IMG/VR virus record: IMGVR_UViG_3300010354_000778
Span: 1-21,951 of that record
From: a virus
Length of the DNA: 21,951 nucleotides
Reading direction: 5' to 3' (one strand)
The notes under the pieces are model-generated. The model was given only the letters and a program-made list of their open reading frames with translations. It was not told where the DNA came from and did not search any database. The position numbers and the translations under genes are program-made. Below, piece by piece: positions 2,679 through 21,904 of the stretch; the first letter of the stretch is position 1, and every line of letters starts with the position of its first letter.

Positions 2679-3718
2679 GTAAAATTGCTTTTATAACTGA
2701 TACCCATTTTGGTGCTCGTAATGATTCGCCTTTGTTTGCTGAATATTTTCTGTCCTTTTTAGAAGGACAGTTTTTTCCCTATTTAAAGGCCAATAATATT
2801 AAAACCGTTATACATCTTGGCGACTTAATGGATCGTAGAAAGTACGTAAATTTTTATATACTTTCACAAGTAAAATCCAGATTTATGGATTATCTTAGAA
2901 AGAATGATATAGAGTTTCATTGTATAGTAGGTAATCATGATACATTCTTTAAAAACACAAACAATCTTAATTCTGTAAATGAGTTATTTGGTGAGAATGG
3001 AATCTATATTTACGATAAACCTGCATGTAAAACAATTGAAGGTTTTGATTTTGCAATAGTTCCTTGGATCAATAAAGAAAACGAAAAAGAATGTTTAGAT
3101 TTTATAAAAACAGCAAAGGCTTCTGTATGTCTAGGCCATTTTGAATTGTATGGGTATGAGATTATGAGGGGCATACCACACGAAGATGGTATGGATCCCA
3201 ATCTGCTTGCCAGATATGAAATGGTTTTGAGTGGCCATTTTCATGTCAAACACAGCAAGGATAATATACATTATCTTGGCACACCATATCAAATAACATT
3301 TAACGATCTTGGTCAGAAAAAAGGATTTTACGTTTTTGATACACAGACTAGAGATTTAGAGTTCATTGAAAATGAAAGAAAACTTTTTTATACATTAACA
3401 TATAATGATGTTGATTATGATATGTTGACTCTGGATTTTGAGCGTTATAGGCAATGTTTTATTAGAGTATATGTTCAAAAGAAGAAAAGCCAAAAATTAT
3501 TTGATCAATATCTAGAAAAACTTAATTCCGTAGAAGTATCAGAATTAAATATTATTGATATGCCAACACAAACTGTTGAAGACAATGTTGACATTGACAC
3601 AACCAAGGATACACTAACCATCATCAATGATGAGATTGATCGTATGGAAGAAGTACCAAATAAAAACAAATTAAAATCTATTATTCATGAATTATATTTG
3701 GAGAGCCTGTCACAATGA
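2675..3718 (+). CDS. 47: Recombination nuclease subunit gp47 (Mre11/SbcD type)
   Basis: The nuclease half of the gp46/gp47 complex, which resects DNA ends for recombination-dependent replication. It is a 347-residue calcineurin-like phosphoesterase with all the metal-site motifs in order: DTHFGAR (Asp9, His11), GDLMDRR (Asp50), GNHD (residues 86-89), GHFEL (His155) and SGHFHVKH (His188, His190). The length matches the family. The C-terminal ~110 residues form the capping and gp46-contacting part, with less conserved charged sequence. The start overlaps the gp55 stop by 4 nt with GGAG upstream, and the stop overlaps the next gene in the same ATGA fashion, indicating translational coupling. The nuclease looks intact. 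Confidence 0.96.
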   Translation: MSKIAFITDTHFGARNDSPLFAEYFLSFLEGQFFPYLKANNIKTVIHLGDLMDRRKYVNFYILSQVKSRFMDYLRKNDIEFHCIVGNHDTFFKNTNNLNSVNELFGENGIYIYDKPACKTIEGFDFAIVPWINKENEKECLDFIKTAKASVCLGHFELYGYEIMRGIPHEDGMDPNLLARYEMVLSGHFHVKHSKDNIHYLGTPYQITFNDLGQKKGFYVFDTQTRDLEFIENERKLFYTLTYNDVDYDMLTLDFERYRQCFIRVYVQKKKSQKLFDQYLEKLNSVEVSELNIIDMPTQTVEDNVDIDTTKDTLTIINDEIDRMEEVPNKNKLKSIIHELYLESLSQ

Positions 3719-4335
3719 ATATTTTTGCAGTTGATAAGAACCCAGTAATTTCTGCCACAAACCTTTGTGATAAACATGTGGTAAAAATGATTGTAGAGAG
3801 TTGCCAGTTGCTTTCTACTGCACACAGAATCCTTGATGGGTATCAAACTACTGTTTTAAATAAAGCAGGTAGGCCAAGAAAAATTTACAAATTAATGGAT
3901 CCTGAACTCGAAAACAAACTCTGCAAGTTTGTTATGCCAAACCATCCCTGTGCAATTTGGGCCAGAGAGACTACATCCAATTATGTTTGGCTGGCAAAGC
4001 ACAATCTAGCCCTTTGTGATGAGTATCAACATCGATACAATAAAACTCATTCTATGGAACCTTTGGCGGTTCTTTTGCACGAACAATTGCCCAACAACAT
4101 TCCAATTGACGAGTTGACTGAGTTTGTTCAGGCAATGCCTACTCAATACAAAATGCCAAATCCTGTATTGGGTTACCGATATTATTATTGTTATGAAAAA
4201 TCAAGATTTGCTAAATGGAAAAATAATAATATTCCATCTTGGTATACTGATTTACATAACTTGAAGGAGCACGTTAAGCAAAGCGGTGTCGATGTTGAAA
4301 TAAACGCTCCGGATATGATTAAAGACGGATTATAA
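3715..4335 (+). CDS. Conserved phage hypothetical protein (MNIFAVDKNP family)
   Basis: A 206-residue protein of a family I recognise from many marine phages but whose function I do not know. Family hallmarks visible here are the start MNIFAVDKNPVISA, then LCDKHVVKMIVESCQLLSTAHR (about residues 17-38), MPNHPCAIWARET (74-86) and a LCDEYQHRYNKTH segment (about 101-113). The repeated conserved His, Asp and Lys residues suggest an enzyme, possibly one acting on nucleic acid since it sits inside the gp47/gp46 unit. That is inference. It is soluble, with no signal peptide or membrane helix. Its start overlaps the gp47 stop (ATGA at 3715-3718). Its stop codon (4333-4335) lies inside a TATAAATA late-promoter box. 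Confidence 0.88.
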   Translation: MNIFAVDKNPVISATNLCDKHVVKMIVESCQLLSTAHRILDGYQTTVLNKAGRPRKIYKLMDPELENKLCKFVMPNHPCAIWARETTSNYVWLAKHNLALCDEYQHRYNKTHSMEPLAVLLHEQLPNNIPIDELTEFVQAMPTQYKMPNPVLGYRYYYCYEKSRFAKWKNNNIPSWYTDLHNLKEHVKQSGVDVEINAPDMIKDGL

Positions 4336-4338
4336 ATA
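4331..4338 (+). promoter_or_regulatory. T4-type late promoter box TATAAATA upstream of the basic head-type protein
   Basis: An exact match to the T4 late consensus. It contains the stop codon of the upstream gene. With T4 geometry (box at about -13 to -6) transcription would begin near 4344, only about 3 nt before the ATG at 4347. This would give the next gene, and gp46 behind it, a separate late transcript. Confidence 0.5.
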
Positions 4339-4346
4339 CTATTACT

Positions 4347-4838
4347 ATGGACACAAATATTTTTAGACAATATCAAGAATTAAAAGAAGCTGCATCGAAT
4401 ATTGAATTGATTGAAAATGTAGATTCTATTGATTTGTATTGCTCTGAAGATAATCATCTAAATGTCATGGAAATTTTAGATGAAGAATATTTTGAGTACG
4501 AAGAAACTGATTTTGGATTTAATATAACTGGATTAACTTTTGATACTGCTGTTGATATTTTATCTGAATATAATTTTTCTGGAGAACTAAACGAAGCATC
4601 TCCTGTTAGAAAAACAGTTGTTCGTGGTGGCAAAAGAAAAATTATTTTTAAATGCCCCCCTGGCCACAAAAGAATTAAACGAAGGTGTATTAGAAGACCG
4701 TCCGCAGAATTAGCAAGAGTCAAACGAGGAGCCAGAAAGGCTGCAAGAAAATCAAGAAGCAAGAAAGCAAGAGCCGCTAGAAGAAGAAAAATTTCTTTAA
4801 AAAGAAGAGCAGCATTTGCAAAACGTCGTCACAAATAA
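4347..4838 (+). CDS. Hyperbasic candidate head/core protein with prohead-protease-type sites
   Basis: A 163-residue protein with two contrasting halves. Residues 1-83 are acidic (many Glu/Asp). Residues 84-163 are extremely rich in Arg and Lys (for example KRGARKAARKSRSKKARAAR) and include a C-x(2)-GH-x(6)-C pair (Cys103, Cys114). Two sites fit the T4 gp21 prohead protease rule [LI]-x-E|[AGS]: LKE|AA after Glu14, close to an N-terminus that resembles a capsid-targeting peptide, and LNE|AS after Glu83, exactly at the acidic/basic boundary. Cutting there would leave an 80-residue DNA-binding-type product. Basic tails with a similar Cys pair occur, as I recall, in prohead-core-like proteins of marine T4-like phages. 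A late promoter box precedes it while gp47 and gp46 flank it. The head role is inferred; the ORF itself is firm. Confidence 0.8.
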   Translation: MDTNIFRQYQELKEAASNIELIENVDSIDLYCSEDNHLNVMEILDEEYFEYEETDFGFNITGLTFDTAVDILSEYNFSGELNEASPVRKTVVRGGKRKIIFKCPPGHKRIKRRCIRRPSAELARVKRGARKAARKSRSKKARAARRRKISLKRRAAFAKRRHK

Positions 4839-13481: not shown

Positions 13482-13784
13482 ATGGCAAAAATACCAGGAA
13501 CAGTGGGTTTAGGTGGAAAAATTGCTCCTAACGACGAAAACGACAAATATCCAGTAACAGACCCAAAATATGGTTTGGGCGGTCTTAGAACAGTGGTAAG
13601 TGAAACAGAAAGAAATGAAATACCATATTTAAGACGCCAATTGGGTATGTTGGTTTATGTAAGTTCAAATAATAATTATTATAAATTAATAAATTTAGGC
13701 ACTCAAGATGGCCCCACAGTAAATGGAGATTGGGAAATATTAACTACCACATCGTCTGGGGACTTGGATGCTGGAACATATTAA
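13482..13784 (+). CDS. Small virion structural protein with C-terminal DAGTY tag
   Basis: A 100-residue protein. The run GLGGLRTVVSETERNEIPYL..GMLVYVSSNNNYYKL..GDWEIL follows the small domain common in phage tail and fibre proteins ('G-x-R-x-V-x-T-x-x-x-R-D-x-I-P..GMLVYV..Y-x-L..W'), which as I recall is a recurrent virion-surface or connector module. It ends DLDAGTY, a tail shared in form with three later proteins of this block. GGAG at 13471-13474 lies 7 nt before the ATG, and the start is 3 nt after the previous stop. A structural role is likely; the exact location in the virion is unknown. Confidence 0.78.
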   Translation: MAKIPGTVGLGGKIAPNDENDKYPVTDPKYGLGGLRTVVSETERNEIPYLRRQLGMLVYVSSNNNYYKLINLGTQDGPTVNGDWEILTTTSSGDLDAGTY

Positions 13785-13827: not shown

Positions 13828-16800
13828 ATGCCAAAAATTCAAATAAAACGCGGTATCACAGATCCAGGAGCAAGTACTTTAACCTCTGCAGGAGAACTTG
13901 CAGTTAATACTAGTGATAAGAAATTTTTTATTAAAACTGCAACCGATAGCACCACTGCACCTATTTGGATGGGTGCACAAATTGTAAATACAGTTAATGA
14001 CTGGAGCAGTGCTGATTTAAGCAAACAGGTACTTACGGGTACTGCGACACGAGATAGAATTAGAAATGCTCCTGAATTATTATTTAATAGTACCGGTACT
14101 ATTGGTGCGTCATTTGGTATTTATAGTCTTAACGGATACATGTGGAATTTTGCAAATAGTGAAATTAATTTTAATAATTCTACATTAAAAAATGCTCCAA
14201 CTCCAGCGTTTGATGGCGATGTTGCAAATAAAAAATACGTAGATAATATCGCAACAGGAATTAGATTTAAAGCTGCAGTAAATAATATTATGTTTGAAGA
14301 TGGTTACGGAAACGCAACTATACCAACATACACAGAAGCAGTAAGTGCAGACTATGTTAGAACACTAAAAACTGAAGTTTATACTCCAGATGCGCCAGCA
14401 CAACCATTTTATGGTTATGCTAGATTTGATATTACGCCGCAGAATAACGATGTCACAGAAACTCTACAAGGTGGAGTTACAATAACTAATTTTCAAATTG
14501 GTGCTACAGTAAAATTAGGTGGAGTTATAATAGGAAAAATTACTAACATATCCCCATTGTATTCAGCGAATGTAAATGAAAGCGTAAAAATTAGAAATGG
14601 TGCTACTAGCACCATCACACATGTGTCTGGAAACGTTACAATCACATTAGATTCAAAGACACCGAGCTCATATACATCTACTCCAAATACTACTTCAATT
14701 ACAATAACAAATGAAGGTAGGGGAGACACATTAACTACTACAGGATCAATAAACTTAGCAGATATAGATTATGCCTCAGTCTGCACAATAAACTCCACAA
14801 CAGGACAACAAACTTGGTCTAATTTTGCAATTAAACCAAACGATAGAGTTCTTGTTAAAGTTTTTTCAGGCTCTGAAGCATATAAAAATGGTATTTACGT
14901 TGTACAAACTGCAGGTACAATAAATATACCATCCTCTATTCTGGGTCCGGGAATGCAAGGAGCCGGTAATAGCAAAATAACGGGAAATGATGTAGTAAAA
15001 CTAAGAGGCGACACTACAAATCAAAACTTATTTTCGCAAAATACTCCTTCAGATATAGATCCAACAACAACTAATAAAGGAACATGTTATCCAACAACAA
15101 CCGGAACAGATTATGGTTATAATTCTAGTACTGGTTTTTGGGAAGACAGTGCAACACCAGCAGGATGGACTTTAGTAAGAGCTACAGATTTTGATATATG
15201 GAACGAAATACCTGGTTCTATTGTTTATGTAAAAGTAGGAACAAATGGCAAATCTAATTGGATTTGTTTGGCAGAAAAAGATATTATAGGAGGAACTTGG
15301 TTAGCAGGCAGTACCTATAATGAATTAGGAAATTCCTCCTATGGTATAGGATTTGGTGAATTTTCAACTGCAGGTGGAATGACCACAACTTATCCTTTAT
15401 ATTCTGATGGAAATAATCTTGGTTTAAATTATATGAGACCATTAACTACGGATCCTATGATGGGAACGTATTTAACATTAGATATAAGACGATATAATGA
15501 TCAAACAAGTTCTGCTAGTGCATATACTATAACTGATATTTCTAGTGATACTGATGTATTAAATAAACCACTATATCTAGGTTACGACACTACTTCAGGT
15601 GCCGAAGGTTATTACTTATATCCAAACCCAAATGCAGGGTCAAGTATTCAAGAATTAGGCACTAGTGATGGCACTGTTACTTTTACTTTTGCTAAGGGAA
15701 GTGGTGATGATAGTATTTATGCAGATAGAGTACAAAATCTTATAACTCAAACAAATGGTCCGATGAAATATGATACTGCTACTGGTTCCCCAATTATAAA
15801 TGGCAATTTAGTTGTAAATGGCCAAGCAGTTGCTTCTAATTTTAAATTTAGTGAGCCTGTAATTACTTCTGCAAGTACTTTTTCTAAATCTAGCAGCGAC
15901 GTTATCTTAGTTGGTCAACAAATCAGTGCAATAACTACTGCAGGCACTAACGGGATTACTGCTACTTTAAGGTCTCATAATGATAGCTCTGAATATGCAT
16001 ATAGTCTAGATGATGAGTTTACAACAAATACCGGTGCAGACTATCCAATAGTCACTTCGGTAACATCCAACTCATTTACTTTAGATAAACCACTACGGCC
16101 ATTTCCAGCACCGGCAGATGTCAGTATATCTGGAGTAAATGTTTATAATACAACAATTATAGGCACAACAGCACCAGTATCAAATGAGTATCCTCTTACA
16201 AGCGCAACCCCATATACTACGAGAACAGGTGATCCTGTTGTTGTAAATAATAATATTGGCAGCAATATTTTATCGGGAACAATATATTATGCTATTGTAA
16301 ATCTGTCTACTCAACGTATAGCATTTGCTTCTTCTTATGCAAATGCGATTGCAGGAATAAAAATAACATCAACCACTGCCGCACCTTCAGGCACAACTGC
16401 AATTACTTATCAATTTACATCTACAAACCACGGATTAAGTAATGGGCAGCAAGTATATTATAATAGTACCGGAAACCCAGCAGGAAACCACACAAACAAT
16501 TCAGTTTATTATGTAACCAGTGTCTCTACAAATGCATTTAGATTAGCATCAACAAGTGCTATTGCCGCTGGTTCAACAAATGGTGTTAGTGATTTAGGAT
16601 TATTGTCAACATTACCAACAAGCACCACACACAAAGTAATTAAAAATATTATTCCAGCAAATACTGAAGCACTAAAAGTTAGAACTGGAAAAATTATAAT
16701 TTCTAGCACAACACAACCCACTCTTCCTGTTCAACTCTTTAATACAGCAAATTATGTTGAAACTGGTGCATTGAATCTAACTGGAAAGTTCCTAAAATTA

Positions 16801-18879
16801 GGAACTGGTACACAAAGAGGAACTGGTGCAGCACAATTTACTCCAGCAGCAGATCAAAATAGAATTTTGGCAAATGTTCAAACGTCTATTACTTATACAA
16901 TATCTAGTTTAAATACTACAACATCTGAATTAGCAATAACCCCAACTGGAACAAAATTACCAACAGGAACTGCTGTTAAATTTTCCACTACATCATCAAT
17001 AACTGGATTGACAAATAACAGTACATATTATGTAATCAATGTTTTAGATGGCTCATCTAATCCTACTAGTGTTGTTAAATTAGCAACAACAAAAGATGAG
17101 GCATTAAACGATGATGCAATATCTTTAACAAGCACCCTAGCTGCTGGTACACACCAATTAATTGAAGAATCTCAATTAAGAGCAGCAGAATTAAGATTTA
17201 ATACTTCAAGTGGTTGGCAAATTAGTAAGACACCTGTTGGTGATAATAGTTCATATGAAGGGTCTCCAACTTACTTTAACTTGGCAACACAAGATGGGAC
17301 AGAAACTTTAACCAATAAAAGTTTAACATCCCCAACTTTAACAACACCAATACTAGGAACACCAGCATCCGGAACTTTAACAAATTGTACAGGATTACCA
17401 ATAAATGGTTTAGTTAGCAGCACTTCATTGGCTTTAGGTGTTGGTAGTATAGAATTAGGGCATGCTTCTGATACAACAATTACAAGAGTTAGTGGTGGCA
17501 AGATTGCTGTTGAAGGTGCCAACATAGCAACGGAACAATATGTTCTAGATAATACAGGCGGTGCAGTTTATAGTTCAGTTTCAAATGCTTCTGTAAGAGC
17601 AATAACTGGAACTATAACATATACCCATTCGTCTGGTTCAAGCACAATAGCAGTTACAGCAGGTGGTGATTTAAATACTGATTTTGAAGGAACATTTACT
17701 ACTACTGGCGCTAGATTATTAGTTAAAAATCAAGCCACTGCAGGTCAAAATGGTATCTATACTATAACATCATATACTAGTAATTCTGTTTATACGCTCA
17801 CAAGAGCTGCAGATTTTGATAGTTCTGCAGAAAGCAGAGCGGGTGGTATAGTATTTGTTAGTGGTGGAACAACTCAAGCAAATACTTCGTGGGGCGTATT
17901 GCTCACATCTGTTATTACAAGTGCGGCTTGGACAGCTGGACCAACAACTTTAGTAATTAACTGGGGACAAACCTCTGCTCCTGGTGCAGGGACAACGTAT
18001 TCTGCAGGAACTGGCTTAACGCTTACGTCAACAACATTTGCCGTTGATAGTGCAACGATACCGTATTTAGCAAATAATAATACATTTTCTGGTAATAATA
18101 CATTTACTGGTGACATAACATTAAATACTGCTAGCAAATCATTAACAATAGGTAGTACTTCTGCAGGGTTGAGTGTTGCAGGCACCACAACATTAAGTGG
18201 TACTACAAATCTAACAGGCGCAACAACTTTGACAAACGCCGGTGGTCTTACATTACGACGAGCAGCAAATCAAGACGGAATTATTCTTAATGGTAGAGCA
18301 GGTGGAACAGCCGGTCATACAGTAACCTTTACACCAACAACACTCAATGGCAGCAGAACAATAACATTACCTGATGTAACCGGAACACTTATAACAGATG
18401 GCAATTTGTCTGCAATTACATCAGTTGGAACATTAAGTGGGTTGACTGTATCTAAATCAAGTGTCAATACAGCAACTTTAACAAATACTGCACTAACTGC
18501 AAATAATTCTATTTTAGTGTTGCACAAGAGCCCAACAAGCGGAACAGATTCCAGCACATATTCAGAAATAAATCTAAAATATACTACATCTGGCGGTACC
18601 GTAACCGATAGATTCTTTGGCATGAAATCTGGAGGAAATGTATATGTTGCTTCTGCAAATGGTGGAACAACTCCATTATTAGAAATTACAACTGCTGGTG
18701 TACTCAGCATAAATAATGGAGCAACTCTAACTTCTGATGCCGCTGCAGATTCAAATCAAGGCAGATTAACTTTAAATTACAATATGAATGTTGCATCATC
18801 AAGAGGCTATAAAGTAAATGGAACTACAGTTATAGATGGTTCTAATGTTTTTGTAGATATGGACTGTGGAACTTATTGA
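13828..18879 (+). CDS. Large tail fibre / receptor-binding adhesin (1683 residues)
   Basis: A very long Thr/Ser/Asn-rich beta protein, probably a trimeric fibre or adhesin that contacts the host. Residues 1-50 (MPKIQIKRG..GELAVNTSDKKFFI) are the phage fibre attachment module, repeated in the 19181 gene. Further along: NKKYVDN at about 134-140; a DRVLVK..NGIYVV..RATDFD domain at about 335-485; a block of three related GxxV..YYV..LA repeats at about 798-1111; the fibre motif TLTNKSLTSPTLTTPILGTP at about 1153-1172; a second YVLDN plus RLLVKN..NGIYTI..RAADFD domain from about 1238; and FSGNNTFTGD, ITLPDVTGTL and GYKVNGTTVID near the C-terminus. It ends DMDCGTY. No intramolecular chaperone or peptidase domain is visible. 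A late promoter and good GGAG precede it. Confidence 0.88.
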   Translation: MPKIQIKRGITDPGASTLTSAGELAVNTSDKKFFIKTATDSTTAPIWMGAQIVNTVNDWSSADLSKQVLTGTATRDRIRNAPELLFNSTGTIGASFGIYSLNGYMWNFANSEINFNNSTLKNAPTPAFDGDVANKKYVDNIATGIRFKAAVNNIMFEDGYGNATIPTYTEAVSADYVRTLKTEVYTPDAPAQPFYGYARFDITPQNNDVTETLQGGVTITNFQIGATVKLGGVIIGKITNISPLYSANVNESVKIRNGATSTITHVSGNVTITLDSKTPSSYTSTPNTTSITITNEGRGDTLTTTGSINLADIDYASVCTINSTTGQQTWSNFAIKPNDRVLVKVFSGSEAYKNGIYVVQTAGTINIPSSILGPGMQGAGNSKITGNDVVKLRGDTTNQNLFSQNTPSDIDPTTTNKGTCYPTTTGTDYGYNSSTGFWEDSATPAGWTLVRATDFDIWNEIPGSIVYVKVGTNGKSNWICLAEKDIIGGTWLAGSTYNELGNSSYGIGFGEFSTAGGMTTTYPLYSDGNNLGLNYMRPLTTDPMMGTYLTLDIRRYNDQTSSASAYTITDISSDTDVLNKPLYLGYDTTSGAEGYYLYPNPNAGSSIQELGTSDGTVTFTFAKGSGDDSIYADRVQNLITQTNGPMKYDTATGSPIINGNLVVNGQAVASNFKFSEPVITSASTFSKSSSDVILVGQQISAITTAGTNGITATLRSHNDSSEYAYSLDDEFTTNTGADYPIVTSVTSNSFTLDKPLRPFPAPADVSISGVNVYNTTIIGTTAPVSNEYPLTSATPYTTRTGDPVVVNNNIGSNILSGTIYYAIVNLSTQRIAFASSYANAIAGIKITSTTAAPSGTTAITYQFTSTNHGLSNGQQVYYNSTGNPAGNHTNNSVYYVTSVSTNAFRLASTSAIAAGSTNGVSDLGLLSTLPTSTTHKVIKNIIPANTEALKVRTGKIIISSTTQPTLPVQLFNTANYVETGALNLTGKFLKLGTGTQRGTGAAQFTPAADQNRILANVQTSITYTISSLNTTTSELAITPTGTKLPTGTAVKFSTTSSITGLTNNSTYYVINVLDGSSNPTSVVKLATTKDEALNDDAISLTSTLAAGTHQLIEESQLRAAELRFNTSSGWQISKTPVGDNSSYEGSPTYFNLATQDGTETLTNKSLTSPTLTTPILGTPASGTLTNCTGLPINGLVSSTSLALGVGSIELGHASDTTITRVSGGKIAVEGANIATEQYVLDNTGGAVYSSVSNASVRAITGTITYTHSSGSSTIAVTAGGDLNTDFEGTFTTTGARLLVKNQATAGQNGIYTITSYTSNSVYTLTRAADFDSSAESRAGGIVFVSGGTTQANTSWGVLLTSVITSAAWTAGPTTLVINWGQTSAPGAGTTYSAGTGLTLTSTTFAVDSATIPYLANNNTFSGNNTFTGDITLNTASKSLTIGSTSAGLSVAGTTTLSGTTNLTGATTLTNAGGLTLRRAANQDGIILNGRAGGTAGHTVTFTPTTLNGSRTITLPDVTGTLITDGNLSAITSVGTLSGLTVSKSSVNTATLTNTALTANNSILVLHKSPTSGTDSSTYSEINLKYTTSGGTVTDRFFGMKSGGNVYVASANGGTTPLLEITTAGVLSINNGATLTSDAAADSNQGRLTLNYNMNVASSRGYKVNGTTVIDGSNVFVDMDCGTY
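14830..15285 (+). repeat. First copy of the 'NGIY..RA-DFD' fibre module
   Basis: Encodes DRVLVKVFSGSEAYKNGIYV, then after an insertion LVRATDFD and a GSIVYVKVGT..WICLAE end. The same order of elements recurs at 17708-17910 in the same gene. The first copy is much longer owing to a Gly/Thr-rich insertion. Confidence 0.6.
16219..16374 (+). repeat. Fibre beta-repeat, copy 1
   Basis: Encodes RTGDPVVVNNNIGSNILSGT, IYYAIVNLSTQRIAFASS and YANAIAGIKIT. It shares the pattern 'G-x-x-V..L-x-[GN]-x-x-[VIT]-Y-Y-[AV]-[IV]..[FL]-A..A' with two later copies. Confidence 0.55.
16420..16599 (+). repeat. Fibre beta-repeat, copy 2
   Basis: Encodes NHGLSNGQQVYYNSTGNPAG, NNSVYYVTSVSTNAFRLAST and a following Ala/Gly-rich turn. 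This is the common phage-fibre 'HGL-S-x-G-x-x-V-x-Y..Y-Y-V..F-x-L-A' unit. Confidence 0.55.
16957..17160 (+). repeat. Fibre beta-repeat, copy 3
   Basis: Encodes LPTGTAVKFSTTSSITGLTN, NSTYYVINVLDG, VVKLATTKDEAL and LTSTLAAGTHQL. The THQL end echoes LSTLPTSTTHKV after copy 2, suggesting the repeat unit extends past the YYV core. Confidence 0.5.
17708..17910 (+). repeat. Second copy of the 'NGIY..RA-DFD' fibre module
   Basis: Encodes ARLLVKNQATAGQNGIYTIT, LTRAADFDSSAESRAGGIVF and TSWGVLLT. It is the compact form of the module whose longer copy lies about 2.9 kb upstream in the same gene. Both copies follow a 'K-Y-V-D-N'-type element. Confidence 0.6.
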
Positions 18880-18918: not shown

Positions 18919-19149
18919 ATGAACGATATGTCAAAATATAATGAAAGTGTAATAATTCCATACCTTCAAAAGAAATACCAAGAATTAAGTAACCAAAATA
19001 TGGTTCTTGAGGTAAATCTTTTGATGGAAAGACAAAAAAATGCGGAATTAGAATCTAAGTTAGCAGAATATACTTCTGTGGATAAACCTAAAGAAGACAA
19101 GAAAAAGAAAAAAACAACAGAAGAAGTATTAGATGCAAGCACATATTAA
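18919..19149 (+). CDS. Small coiled-coil protein with C-terminal DASTY tag
   Basis: A 76-residue charged protein between the two large fibre genes. Residues about 12-50 (VIIPYLQKKYQELSNQNMVL, EVNLLMERQKNAELESKLAE) show a heptad pattern typical of a parallel coiled coil. A Lys-rich linker follows (DKPKEDKKKKKTTEE), and it ends VLDASTY, like the C-termini of the flanking fibres. It has the strongest Shine-Dalgarno in the tail block (AAAGGAGA, 6-7 nt before ATG 18919). A Met three codons in (18928) is a less likely start. No family is recognised. Trimerising coiled coil plus shared tag suggests a fibre adaptor or assembly partner; this is inference. Confidence 0.75.
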   Translation: MNDMSKYNESVIIPYLQKKYQELSNQNMVLEVNLLMERQKNAELESKLAEYTSVDKPKEDKKKKKTTEEVLDASTY

Positions 19150-19180: not shown

Positions 19181-21904
19181 ATGCCTCCAGTATTAAAAAT
19201 AAAAAGATCAGCAACATCGGGATCGGCCCCTGCATCACTTTCTGATGGAGAACTTGCTGTAAATACTACTGATAAAAAATTATACGTAGGAACTTCCGGA
19301 AGCGTTGTAGAATTGACTGGTGGTGCAGGTGGAGGTATCACTTCTATAGGATTAAATGTTCCTTCTTCTATATTTACTTCTAATGGAACAATAACATCAA
19401 ATGGAAGTTTAGGGTTTAGTTTAAATAATCAAAACGCTAATCTTATTTTTGCATCTCCAGACAATACATCAGGTGCCCCAAGTTTTAGAACATTAGTGCC
19501 GAAAGATCTAGCAGCAAGTGGAACCGCTAATCAATATCTTCAAATAAATAGTTCAGGCAATTTAGTTTGGAATACGATTTCTACTTCTGGCGGTGCCCCA
19601 TCCGGCACAAATGGTCAAATACAGCTTGTGGTGAAAGATGGTGGAGTATTTGATTCATTAACAAATTTTCAAATATTAACAAATTCTTCTTATTTTTTTA
19701 AGAACAATATAATAACAGTTCCAACGCAAAATACAACATATAGTAAAATTAATTTTCCATTTAATAATATATTTTCAGAAAATGATATCGTGGGAATATC
19801 CACTGGTGGTGGAGCAACTACTAATTATGTAATTAGAAATGTAACTAATACTTCTTTTAAAACTTATGCATTACCAACATCTTCCGGATCAGCTATAGGT
19901 TCATTAGAAACATTAAGTGGCTCAAATACTTCGTCTATACAATTATCGCCACCTAGCAATTCCACTACTCCTCTATTTTTCACAGGAACACTTAAAACCC
20001 CTGCTGGAACTGCTCCATCAACAATAACAGTCGCTACTGCTATTGTTGGTAATTTTAAAGTAGGTATGCAAATAACTAGTGGTGTTAGACCTGTAATTAT
20101 TAGAGGGTGCATAGTCGATACAACTAGTCAAAACAGCGTGTCGCTATATGATAGTATACCAACTACAACAGGAATTCTTGCTAATTGTTATGTTGATGTT
20201 TTAAAAAATGAATTATCTACAGATGCTAGTGCAAACAATGCACAAACAAATGCAATTACTTGCGTATTTGCTTCGCCAAACACTTATATATCAAGCGCTA
20301 ATACAACCACAAGAATTGTAACTTTTAATCAAAATATTTTAGGTAGATTTAATACAGATACTACATCCGGAAGTGGAGTCATACTTAAAAAAAGCGATAC
20401 TGAAACAACTATGGATATTGTAGTATATCAAAAAGGCGCGATGCGTTCAAATACCTACATAACTCACATAGATGCAGCAACCGGAATTCTTACATTAAAT
20501 CAAAGACAGCATAACGCAACAGATACGGCTGGTGTGACCCTAACTGGATATGCAACATTTCCGGAAAGAAACGTATTTTCTTTTGGAACACCTTTATACA
20601 AAACTACATCAGAAATAATAACAAACGAAAGTATTTGTTTAATTAAACAAATAAATGATGCTAATAGAAATTTAGAACAAAAAATTTTATTTAAAGCCCC
20701 AGAAGCATATACAATCAGTGTTAGTGCTATTTCAACAGCAACAGTAACACTGTCCGTAAAAAATAATTTAATAGAAATGTGTGTTGGAGATATTATATTA
20801 TATGGAACAAGCACAAGTGGAACAACCCAATTAACTCCAACAACATTAACTTATATAAAAAGCATAAATTACAATAATGGAACAATAACTTTAAATTCTG
20901 CGACGGAATTAACCGGAGCGACTCAATTAACAATCAGATCTTCTAGATATGTAAAAAGTGTAATTGAACACAGATCGTTTCCTTATGACTCATATAACCC
21001 AACAAATAGATTTAATCATTCAAATATTATAAAATATGCTCGCGATACTGGTGGTTCTGGCTCTTTAGATTACGATTTAAGTTCAGTATCATATGAAAAA
21101 ACATTATTTGATGTGCAAAAAGGATCTGGAAATAATTTAGGATCAATAAATGATATGGGTTTATATATTTGTAGCGATACTTCTATAAAAATAGGAATAT
21201 CTGCTATTTCTAGAGGAGCAAATGTTGATAATAAGTCTATAAAAGAACCTATAGATAGTATTTTACCACACATTTCTATAGAACCACTCAAATATACTTC
21301 AGATTATTACAATGGTATATATTTTAAAAATGTTCCAGTAAATAATGATCCTTTAGACAATTCAAATTATTTTTATGTTATGGGGTGCAAATCTGCAACT
21401 CCAAGAAAAAATGATGGAGCTAATTTTTTAACTTGGTATAGACTGTCTGCAACTAGTATTTCTAGTTTGATTGGTGGCCCCGGTACCACAGTAAACCCTA
21501 AAGAAGAAATAAATGAAATAACTGGATTGCCAGAATTAGTTATTTCTTTAGCAGATGAAGTCCCAATAAATACCTCTTTGACAGTTCCTCTAATTAAAGG
21601 AACTGCTGGTGGAGATTTAAATATCACAACAGAATCGCCCGATTCAAATATAGTTTTATCGATTCCACAAAGCAATACAGATGTAGTTTTATCTACAGGA
21701 AATGTATATATTACTTCTGGGTTAGATGCTGGTGATGTTTATGTACAATCAGCAGAAGATGTATATCTAACTTCACAAAATGTAAGAGTTTCTGGTAATT
21801 TAATTGTAGATGGCTATATTCAATCAGGAACAGGCTTTCAGGGTGACAATACTGACGCAGAAGAGCCAATTACTGGTCTTGTCATGGATGGGGGCACTTT
21901 CTGA
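19181..21904 (+). CDS. Second tail fibre / adhesin sharing the N-terminal attachment module (907 residues)
   Basis: A Thr/Ser/Asn-rich beta fibre protein. Residues 1-50 (MPPVLKIKRSATSGSAPASL, SDGELAVNTTDKKLYVG) duplicate the attachment module of the 1683-residue fibre, so both probably dock on the same part of the tail. Next come a Gly-rich linker, ITSIGLNVPSSIFTSNGTIT and KDLAASGTANQYLQINSSGN, a common fibre motif. A long unique central region (about 160-800) has beta-rich repeats around SSIQLSPPSNS, RIVTFNQNILGRF and HRSFPYDSYNPTN, and is the likely host-contact part. The C-terminal LTVPLIKGTAGGDLNITTES..VYITS..VYVQSAEDVYLTS..VRVSGNLIVDGYIQ repeats are typical of T4-like fibres, and it ends VMDGGTF. 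No clear ribosome-binding site precedes the ATG. Confidence 0.87.
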   Translation: MPPVLKIKRSATSGSAPASLSDGELAVNTTDKKLYVGTSGSVVELTGGAGGGITSIGLNVPSSIFTSNGTITSNGSLGFSLNNQNANLIFASPDNTSGAPSFRTLVPKDLAASGTANQYLQINSSGNLVWNTISTSGGAPSGTNGQIQLVVKDGGVFDSLTNFQILTNSSYFFKNNIITVPTQNTTYSKINFPFNNIFSENDIVGISTGGGATTNYVIRNVTNTSFKTYALPTSSGSAIGSLETLSGSNTSSIQLSPPSNSTTPLFFTGTLKTPAGTAPSTITVATAIVGNFKVGMQITSGVRPVIIRGCIVDTTSQNSVSLYDSIPTTTGILANCYVDVLKNELSTDASANNAQTNAITCVFASPNTYISSANTTTRIVTFNQNILGRFNTDTTSGSGVILKKSDTETTMDIVVYQKGAMRSNTYITHIDAATGILTLNQRQHNATDTAGVTLTGYATFPERNVFSFGTPLYKTTSEIITNESICLIKQINDANRNLEQKILFKAPEAYTISVSAISTATVTLSVKNNLIEMCVGDIILYGTSTSGTTQLTPTTLTYIKSINYNNGTITLNSATELTGATQLTIRSSRYVKSVIEHRSFPYDSYNPTNRFNHSNIIKYARDTGGSGSLDYDLSSVSYEKTLFDVQKGSGNNLGSINDMGLYICSDTSIKIGISAISRGANVDNKSIKEPIDSILPHISIEPLKYTSDYYNGIYFKNVPVNNDPLDNSNYFYVMGCKSATPRKNDGANFLTWYRLSATSISSLIGGPGTTVNPKEEINEITGLPELVISLADEVPINTSLTVPLIKGTAGGDLNITTESPDSNIVLSIPQSNTDVVLSTGNVYITSGLDAGDVYVQSAEDVYLTSQNVRVSGNLIVDGYIQSGTGFQGDNTDAEEPITGLVMDGGTF

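Follow-up and report, generated by a model that had tools for sequence, protein, structure and literature searches.

What does a small protein of two oppositely charged halves do among the recombination genes of a T4-like phage? The window analyzed here comprises a complete virus record (21,951 bases) and contains in this order uvsW, a PHROG 471-like gene, gp55, gp47, a PF03013 pyrimidine-dimer glycosylase gene (3715-4335; Pfam E 1.6e-10), a gene for a protein of 163 aa (4347..4838, + strand) and gp46. Judged from similarity to relatives and by eye, more replication genes and large fibre-like ORFs lie downstream of gp46; gp20-gp23 were not found in the record. An earlier, sequence-only reading had placed the gene between gp47 and gp46: gp46 is indeed the next gene, but the glycosylase gene intervenes after gp47. 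Based on the analyses described below, it is highly probable that the 163-aa protein is a prohead-core protein of the gp68 type, whose gene was relocated to a position beside gp46 and which is cut by gp21 at the joint of its two domains.

The division into an acidic and a basic half is as first described. Residues 1-83 (4347..4595, + strand) have a net charge of -20, and the 80 residues 84-163 (4596..4835, + strand) a net charge of +35. In an AlphaFold2 model (mean pLDDT 84.5, pTM 0.43), the acidic half is predicted as an alpha/beta domain consisting of helix 5-17, strands 20-23 and 27-31, helix 37-46, strands 50-53 and 57-61, and helix 65-74, and the basic half as two beta hairpins followed by a long 39-residue helix (119-157). 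The invariant residues Cys103 and Cys114 are both located in the modelled hairpins. Searches for similar proteins with known function yielded little: a single Pfam match far under the cut-off, nothing in NCBIfam or in a PDB sequence search, and no Foldseek match in PDB at E <= 0.001. The best match in the viral structure library BFVD is a 99-residue protein without a name (E 2.2e-4), and the 'Prohead core protein' of Vibrio phage Kuja takes the fifteenth rank (E 0.15). The same library includes a 700-residue 'Prohead protease' of an uncultured phage (A0A6J7X314) that aligns weakly with the model (E 0.12 at 22% identity over 88 columns); it may combine a protease and a domain of the present family in one protein.

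The recognition motif of the T4 protease is given as L/I-X-E (PMC9026906). Only two matches to the form [LI]xE[AGS] are present in the window protein, i.e. at Glu14 (LKE↓A, codons 12-15, 4380..4391, + strand) and at Glu83 (LNE↓A, codons 81-84, 4587..4598, + strand), the latter exactly on the acidic/basic joint, as had been claimed. Two such sites are near chance in a single protein (composition shuffles: mean 0.40, P(two or more) = 0.056), and it is the conservation across near relatives that raises Glu83 above chance. The comparison started from 57 sequences (the window and 56 loci), from which five fragments (L034, L007, L071, L074, L075) were removed; an 80% redundancy filter left 28 sequences, composed of a near set of 25 and a gp21-adjacent set of three. 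Glu83 is invariant in 25/25 near relatives (<80% identity), residue 81 is Leu in 22 and Ile in three, and residue 84 is Gly in 12, Ala in 11 and Val in two, hence Ala/Gly in 23/25; positions 1-82 contain no other invariant residue. The near set includes L078 (95 aa), which is gapped over most of the acidic half; without it, Glu83 is found in 24/24 members and the next best acidic-half residue, Leu44, in 22/24. An alignment of 32 members with another tool setting again shows Glu83 as invariant, and before it Met1 as well. In the model, Glu83 is part of a linker (75-86), and the mean pLDDT is 61 over residues 81-90.

Glu14 had been read as a second cut, near an N-terminus resembling the T4 capsid-targeting peptide. 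The motif is present in the window protein, but neither the site nor such an N-terminus is conserved in the near relatives. Ala15 occurs in 1/25 near members (the window alone), and the three nearest relatives show QKE↓N, IKE↓E and ILE↓K at the position of Glu14, which was thus rejected as a conserved cut. A strict N-terminal site within 25 residues, the joint excluded, is contained in 3/25 members (the window, L038 and L060) and in none of the nearest relatives. Of the two sites whose alignment among homologues the earlier reading had proposed to check, Glu83 consequently aligns and Glu14 does not.

The motif is unevenly distributed. The acidic halves of the 25 members contain 154 L/I-x-E sites, of which 25 are the joints and 129 lie elsewhere. 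This is an approximately twofold enrichment over the 77 +/- 7 sites of 1000 shuffles, in which 154 was never reached; as the sequences are related, the test does not provide a clean probability. The basic halves contain no L/I-x-E site in 2076 residues (25 members), where shuffling predicts 1.5; a significant lack of sites in this half was therefore rejected.

According to the model that we favor, the gene left the portal-protease cluster and now lies between the pyrimidine-dimer glycosylase gene and gp46. The protein would be made late and would enter the prohead core, where a gp21-type protease would cut it after Glu83, in the flexible linker between the halves. Shredding of the acidic half, in which further L/I-x-E sites abound, would make room for DNA, while the 80-residue basic half would be released whole and then most likely be lost or persist as a minor remnant on the DNA. 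The model is sequence-based: it draws on the split into two halves, the invariance of the joint site, the profile match between the basic half and gp21-adjacent genes, the common joint and the stand-alone version of the basic domain. The earlier description as a cleaved internal head protein appears to be right in kind, given the conserved joint site and the domain kin upstream of gp21. In T4, gp68 is present in about 240 copies, is not essential, and is degraded by gp21 together with gp22 and gp67, ending as small peptides that presumably escape (PMC9958956).

What becomes of the basic half could also be seen differently. The protein may be a retained internal head protein: gp21 would remove the acidic half, and the 80 basic residues would remain with the packaged DNA and perhaps be injected. 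We consider this unlikely, albeit by no means negligible. A retained version is possible because the canonical specificity offers no cut in the basic half, in any of the 25 members or, past the joint, in any of eight gp68 proteins of the T4 family. Furthermore, the basic half also exists as a separate protein of 80 aa, and a second subgroup of the family lies, judged by eye, among proteins with N-termini resembling capsid-targeting peptides. Against retention, the missing sites in the basic halves are not significant, and gp68 is said to become escaping peptides in the T4 account cited above. A role in condensing DNA is unlikely because at the T4 copy number only about 2.5% of the phosphates would be offset (240 x 35 over 2 x 168,903), which is too little.

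Late synthesis, as the favored model assumes, is addressed by the sequence ahead of the gene. The octamer TATAAATA (4331..4338, + strand), which we take to be a T4-type late promoter box, begins 16 nt ahead of the ATG and overlaps the glycosylase gene at its stop codon; the leader would therefore be very short. Besides the window, its three nearest relatives L031, L032 and L033 have the box ahead of the gene, which makes 4/25 members; the remaining 21 near members lack the exact box. The window contains eight such boxes where 5.0 are expected (at least eight in 14/100 shuffles), and because this count is not beyond chance, the box was rejected as stand-alone evidence. In the long contigs, it occurs within 80 nt upstream of gp22 in 4/5 cases, of gp23 in 1/5, of the family gene in 1/6, of regA in 2/4 and of uvsW in 1/5, but of the portal gene and gp21 in none; within 80 nt upstream of gp46, gp47, gp55, gp45 and gp44, it is found in 0/23. 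Hence, the claim that the gene has its own late box holds for the window and its closest relatives and weakens beyond them, and the box is at most suggestive of late expression of the 163-aa gene.

In order to place the gene among its relatives, viral contigs were scanned, which resulted in 10 relatives with the single sequence and 56 loci with a profile. The family gene lies directly upstream of gp46 in 30/56 loci; 22 of these have the glycosylase gene, three have gp47 but no glycosylase gene, and five start inside the gene. In the second subgroup (21/56 loci), it adjoins neither gp46 nor gp21. The remaining five loci (L080-L084) have it directly upstream of the gp21 protease gene, with the portal gene about 3.8 kb further upstream in the four that reach that far. 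One family match each was obtained in 12 virus records, and none in the three annotated records (T4, Sf-FP1, P-HM2). The family profile finds no member in the records of P-HM2, Sf-FP1, C48C1, phiM19 and Cr30, and the genes between gp47 and gp46 in P-HM2, Sf-FP1 and phiM19 are apparently unrelated (by eye). A tblastn search of L009, L008 and L082 against annotated phages gave no match, perhaps as a result of filtering of the basic stretches.

The location beside gp46 raises an alternative, namely a DNA-binding accessory of repair or recombination that acts with gp46/gp47 and the glycosylase and whose protease motif is fortuitous. The 30 gp46-adjacent loci speak for it, yet the 21 loci adjoining neither gene and the five adjoining gp21 do not, and the sole invariant residue of the acidic half is the Glu of the protease motif. 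The late box of the closest relatives, compared with 0/23 for gp46, gp47, gp55, gp45 and gp44, points in the same direction, although uvsW (1/5) and regA (2/4) can carry it, too. A repair role is disfavored because the position of the gene varies and because of the protease joint, and we regard it as improbable.

In the second subgroup, the gene is surrounded by proteins whose N-termini, judged by eye, resemble capsid-targeting peptides ending in LTE↓A, LAE↓S and LLE↓G (L045, 2033-2971 and 8251-9477; L048, 8152-9360; L038, 3442-4641). One neighbor is a DUF6267 protein. The neighborhood is a candidate cluster of internal head proteins.

The gp21-adjacent loci bear on the origin proposed in the favored model. 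A scan with this group identified 21 loci, five of them on already known contigs, and gp21 is the next identified gene in 20/21 of these head-cluster loci; L127 stops short of gp21, and L131 carries a gap of about 490 bases. After removal of a fragment (L138), a member with a misplaced start (L126) and near-duplicates, 11 members were counted. Nine are fusions, all of which (9/9) have an [LI]xE↓[AGS] joint that leaves 79-80 aa, and two consist of the basic domain only (80 and 81 aa). The N-terminal part of the gp21-adjacent proteins is gp67-like (87-89%; score 34 versus at most 17.5 in shuffles). In L132, L133 and L139 (79 aa), the stand-alone gene is immediately preceded by a separate ORF with a gp67-like stretch (by eye) and immediately followed by gp21. 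Because such genes of 79-81 aa are found, the predicted cleavage product has a gene of its own.

Head genes of the relatives were located by blastp with annotated proteins of T4, P-HM2 and C48C1; phrog_20, tried as a portal profile, was discarded as the wrong family. Each of five relatives with gp21 possesses one family gene, which never lies before gp21. Portal gene and gp21 are present in G002, G009 and G011, where the family gene adjoins gp46 and where the place before gp21 is taken by large ORFs and a small gp67-like ORF, with no basic-domain gene; none precedes gp21 in G001 either. In G008, a member of the second subgroup, the family gene is about 57 kb away from the head cluster. The earlier impression that the gene is out of place among recombination genes is thus well founded; domains akin to its own are found directly upstream of gp21 elsewhere. 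A place next to gp21 in the portal-protease cluster is customary for gp68-type genes but does not define the protein. The gp21 of the relatives keeps the T4 protease sequence blocks, which presumably hold the catalytic residues, and begins, at or near its N-terminus, with MKLITE, an L/I-x-E site. Near the place of LTE↓A in T4, the gp23 of G001, G002, G009 and G011 reads LTE↓N, LRE↓D, LRE↓D and LRE↓T, respectively (by eye); the residue after the cut may be relaxed in gp23 of these relatives.

Profile comparisons connect the basic half to these head-cluster genes. With hhalign, the near family matches three phrog_3503-type proteins (RHph_TM30, Vibrio K469 and 207E48) at 97.7% (E 2.3e-12, score 73.7) and the gp21-adjacent L080-L083 at 96.4% (E 1.3e-9, score 63.0), whereas 60 column shuffles per comparison reach a score of at most 18.9; a separate profile comparison with the gp21-adjacent genes resulted in 96.6%. 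Phrog_33445, a PHROG without assigned function, matches 26/32 near members, RHph_TM30, K469 and T4 at gene 68 (E 0.0015 against gp68, 8.9e-5 against the T4 genome), but 0/14 control genomes. PHROG 3503 matches the window protein only weakly (E 0.011), and 8/32 near members at E <= 0.01. The gp21-adjacent relative was modelled with the same order of hairpin, hairpin and long helix (mean pLDDT 72.5), its joint Glu103 being in a low-confidence stretch. The family profile misses the 156-kb record G023, a bearer of the stand-alone basic gene, and the stand-alone L132 protein reaches only 20.9%.

Unrelated Lys/Arg-rich stretches of the same contigs served as a control; 13 of 19 were used, the other six being family members, and none of them exceeds 4.8% with the near profile, although most are less basic than the family. 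The stretches had been cut to 80 residues; even true members, when cut likewise, reach no more than 8.5% against the gp21-adjacent profile, and that arm of the control is uninformative. It is very improbable that the connection with head genes merely reflects a composition rich in Lys/Arg: the compared domains are all 30-49% Lys/Arg, the direct T4 gp68 match is weak and PHROG 3503 at E <= 1 also matches 4/14 control genomes, but composition-keeping column shuffles and reversed profiles stay far below the real scores, the unrelated stretches do not match, the fold order is common to both predictions, and the joint motif and the gp21 neighborhood are independent of composition. According to these comparisons, the basic half is related to genes at the gene 68 position in other T4-like viruses.

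Among known systems, T4 gp68 (head scaffolding/prohead core, PHROG 1049) has the same acidic-then-basic layout as the window protein and, likewise, L/I-x-E sites in its first half only, including LNE↓F at the joint (67); the phrog_33445 match is common to both families. The differences concern location, with gene 68 lying between gp67 and gp21, an acidic half without evident likeness to that of the window protein, and the lack of the C-x-PG...C hairpin motif. Compared directly with the near family, T4 gp68 gives a weak match (41% over 21 columns; 8.4% for the C-terminal part alone), and a search of the T4 record with the family profile gives no match at E <= 0.1. Through intermediates, T4 gp68 is reached at 87.8% from the phrog_3503 type and at 82.6% from the gp21-adjacent type. 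The link from the window family to T4 gp68 is therefore mainly indirect, and weak when direct. All eight gp68 proteins examined, i.e. T4 gp68 and seven relatives from annotated phages, show the acidic/basic split. An L/I-x-E motif lies close to it in seven (LNE↓F in T4, LSE↓K in K575), the exception being Skers with VNE↓A.

The phrog_3503-type proteins of Rhizobium RHph phages and, via similarity to these, of Vibrio K469 and 207E48 are annotated 'head scaffolding' or 'prohead core' and possess a CPPGYK...C basic domain like that of the window protein, but measure only 99-101 aa, their N-terminal part being short. K469 and 207E48 have the gene flanked by those for the portal protein and a gp21 homolog, whereas the Rhizobium gene is outside any head cluster within the 20 kb seen; the joint is an exact L/I-x-E in 1/3 (IVE↓A; the others are VTE↓A and ASE↓A). 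The gp67-basic fusions upstream of gp21 in uncultured T4-like viruses (L080-L084, L120-L139) share the basic domain and the [LI]xE↓[AGS] joint with the window protein, but their N-terminal part is helical and gp67-like, while its partner in the window is an alpha/beta domain. From T4 IPI-III and Alt, an N-terminal part is removed by gp21 as well (PMC9958956, PMC9026906). This part is a short targeting peptide, whereas the conserved site of the window family is at the mid-protein joint; a short N-terminal peptide with a gp21 site at its end is not conserved in the family.

The protein had been presented as new in kind; it rather belongs with the already known gp68-type prohead-core proteins. 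Its kinship would extend the gp68 kind to phages outside the T4 family and imply that a head cluster may lack a gp68-type gene which the genome carries at another place. Cyanophages have been described as lacking gp67 and gp68 (PMC2984593). Among the papers listed by literature searches, no title or opening of an abstract describes such a relocation or a stand-alone basic domain. Given this modularity (one basic domain, varied acidic partners, the same joint, a stand-alone form), what the gp68 basic half does and what becomes of it can be tested. It is conceivable, though doubtful, that the basic domain is a portable and widespread head component of T4-like viruses that is joined through a protease joint to whichever acidic domain builds the core, and whose intact 80-residue piece stays on the DNA in the mature head after cleavage. 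If true, the half of gp68 regarded as 'discarded' would be a DNA-binding protein of the head interior that has been overlooked, and its gene would have moved into the recombination operon in the lineage of the window.

A separate observation concerns the far end of the window. Four consecutive ORFs of structural type (13482-13784, 13828-18879, 18919-19149 and 19181-21904) terminate in similar C-terminal tags: LDAGTY, MDCGTY, LDASTY and MDGGTF. Among 1795 mechanical ORFs from six related contigs, six have the same kind of ending, and four of these are consecutive in G001; as a control, the motif seven residues earlier is found in 1/1795 ORFs. Furthermore, the two fibre-like ORFs 13828-18879 and 19181-21904 have similar starting segments (KIKR...GELAVNT-DKK).
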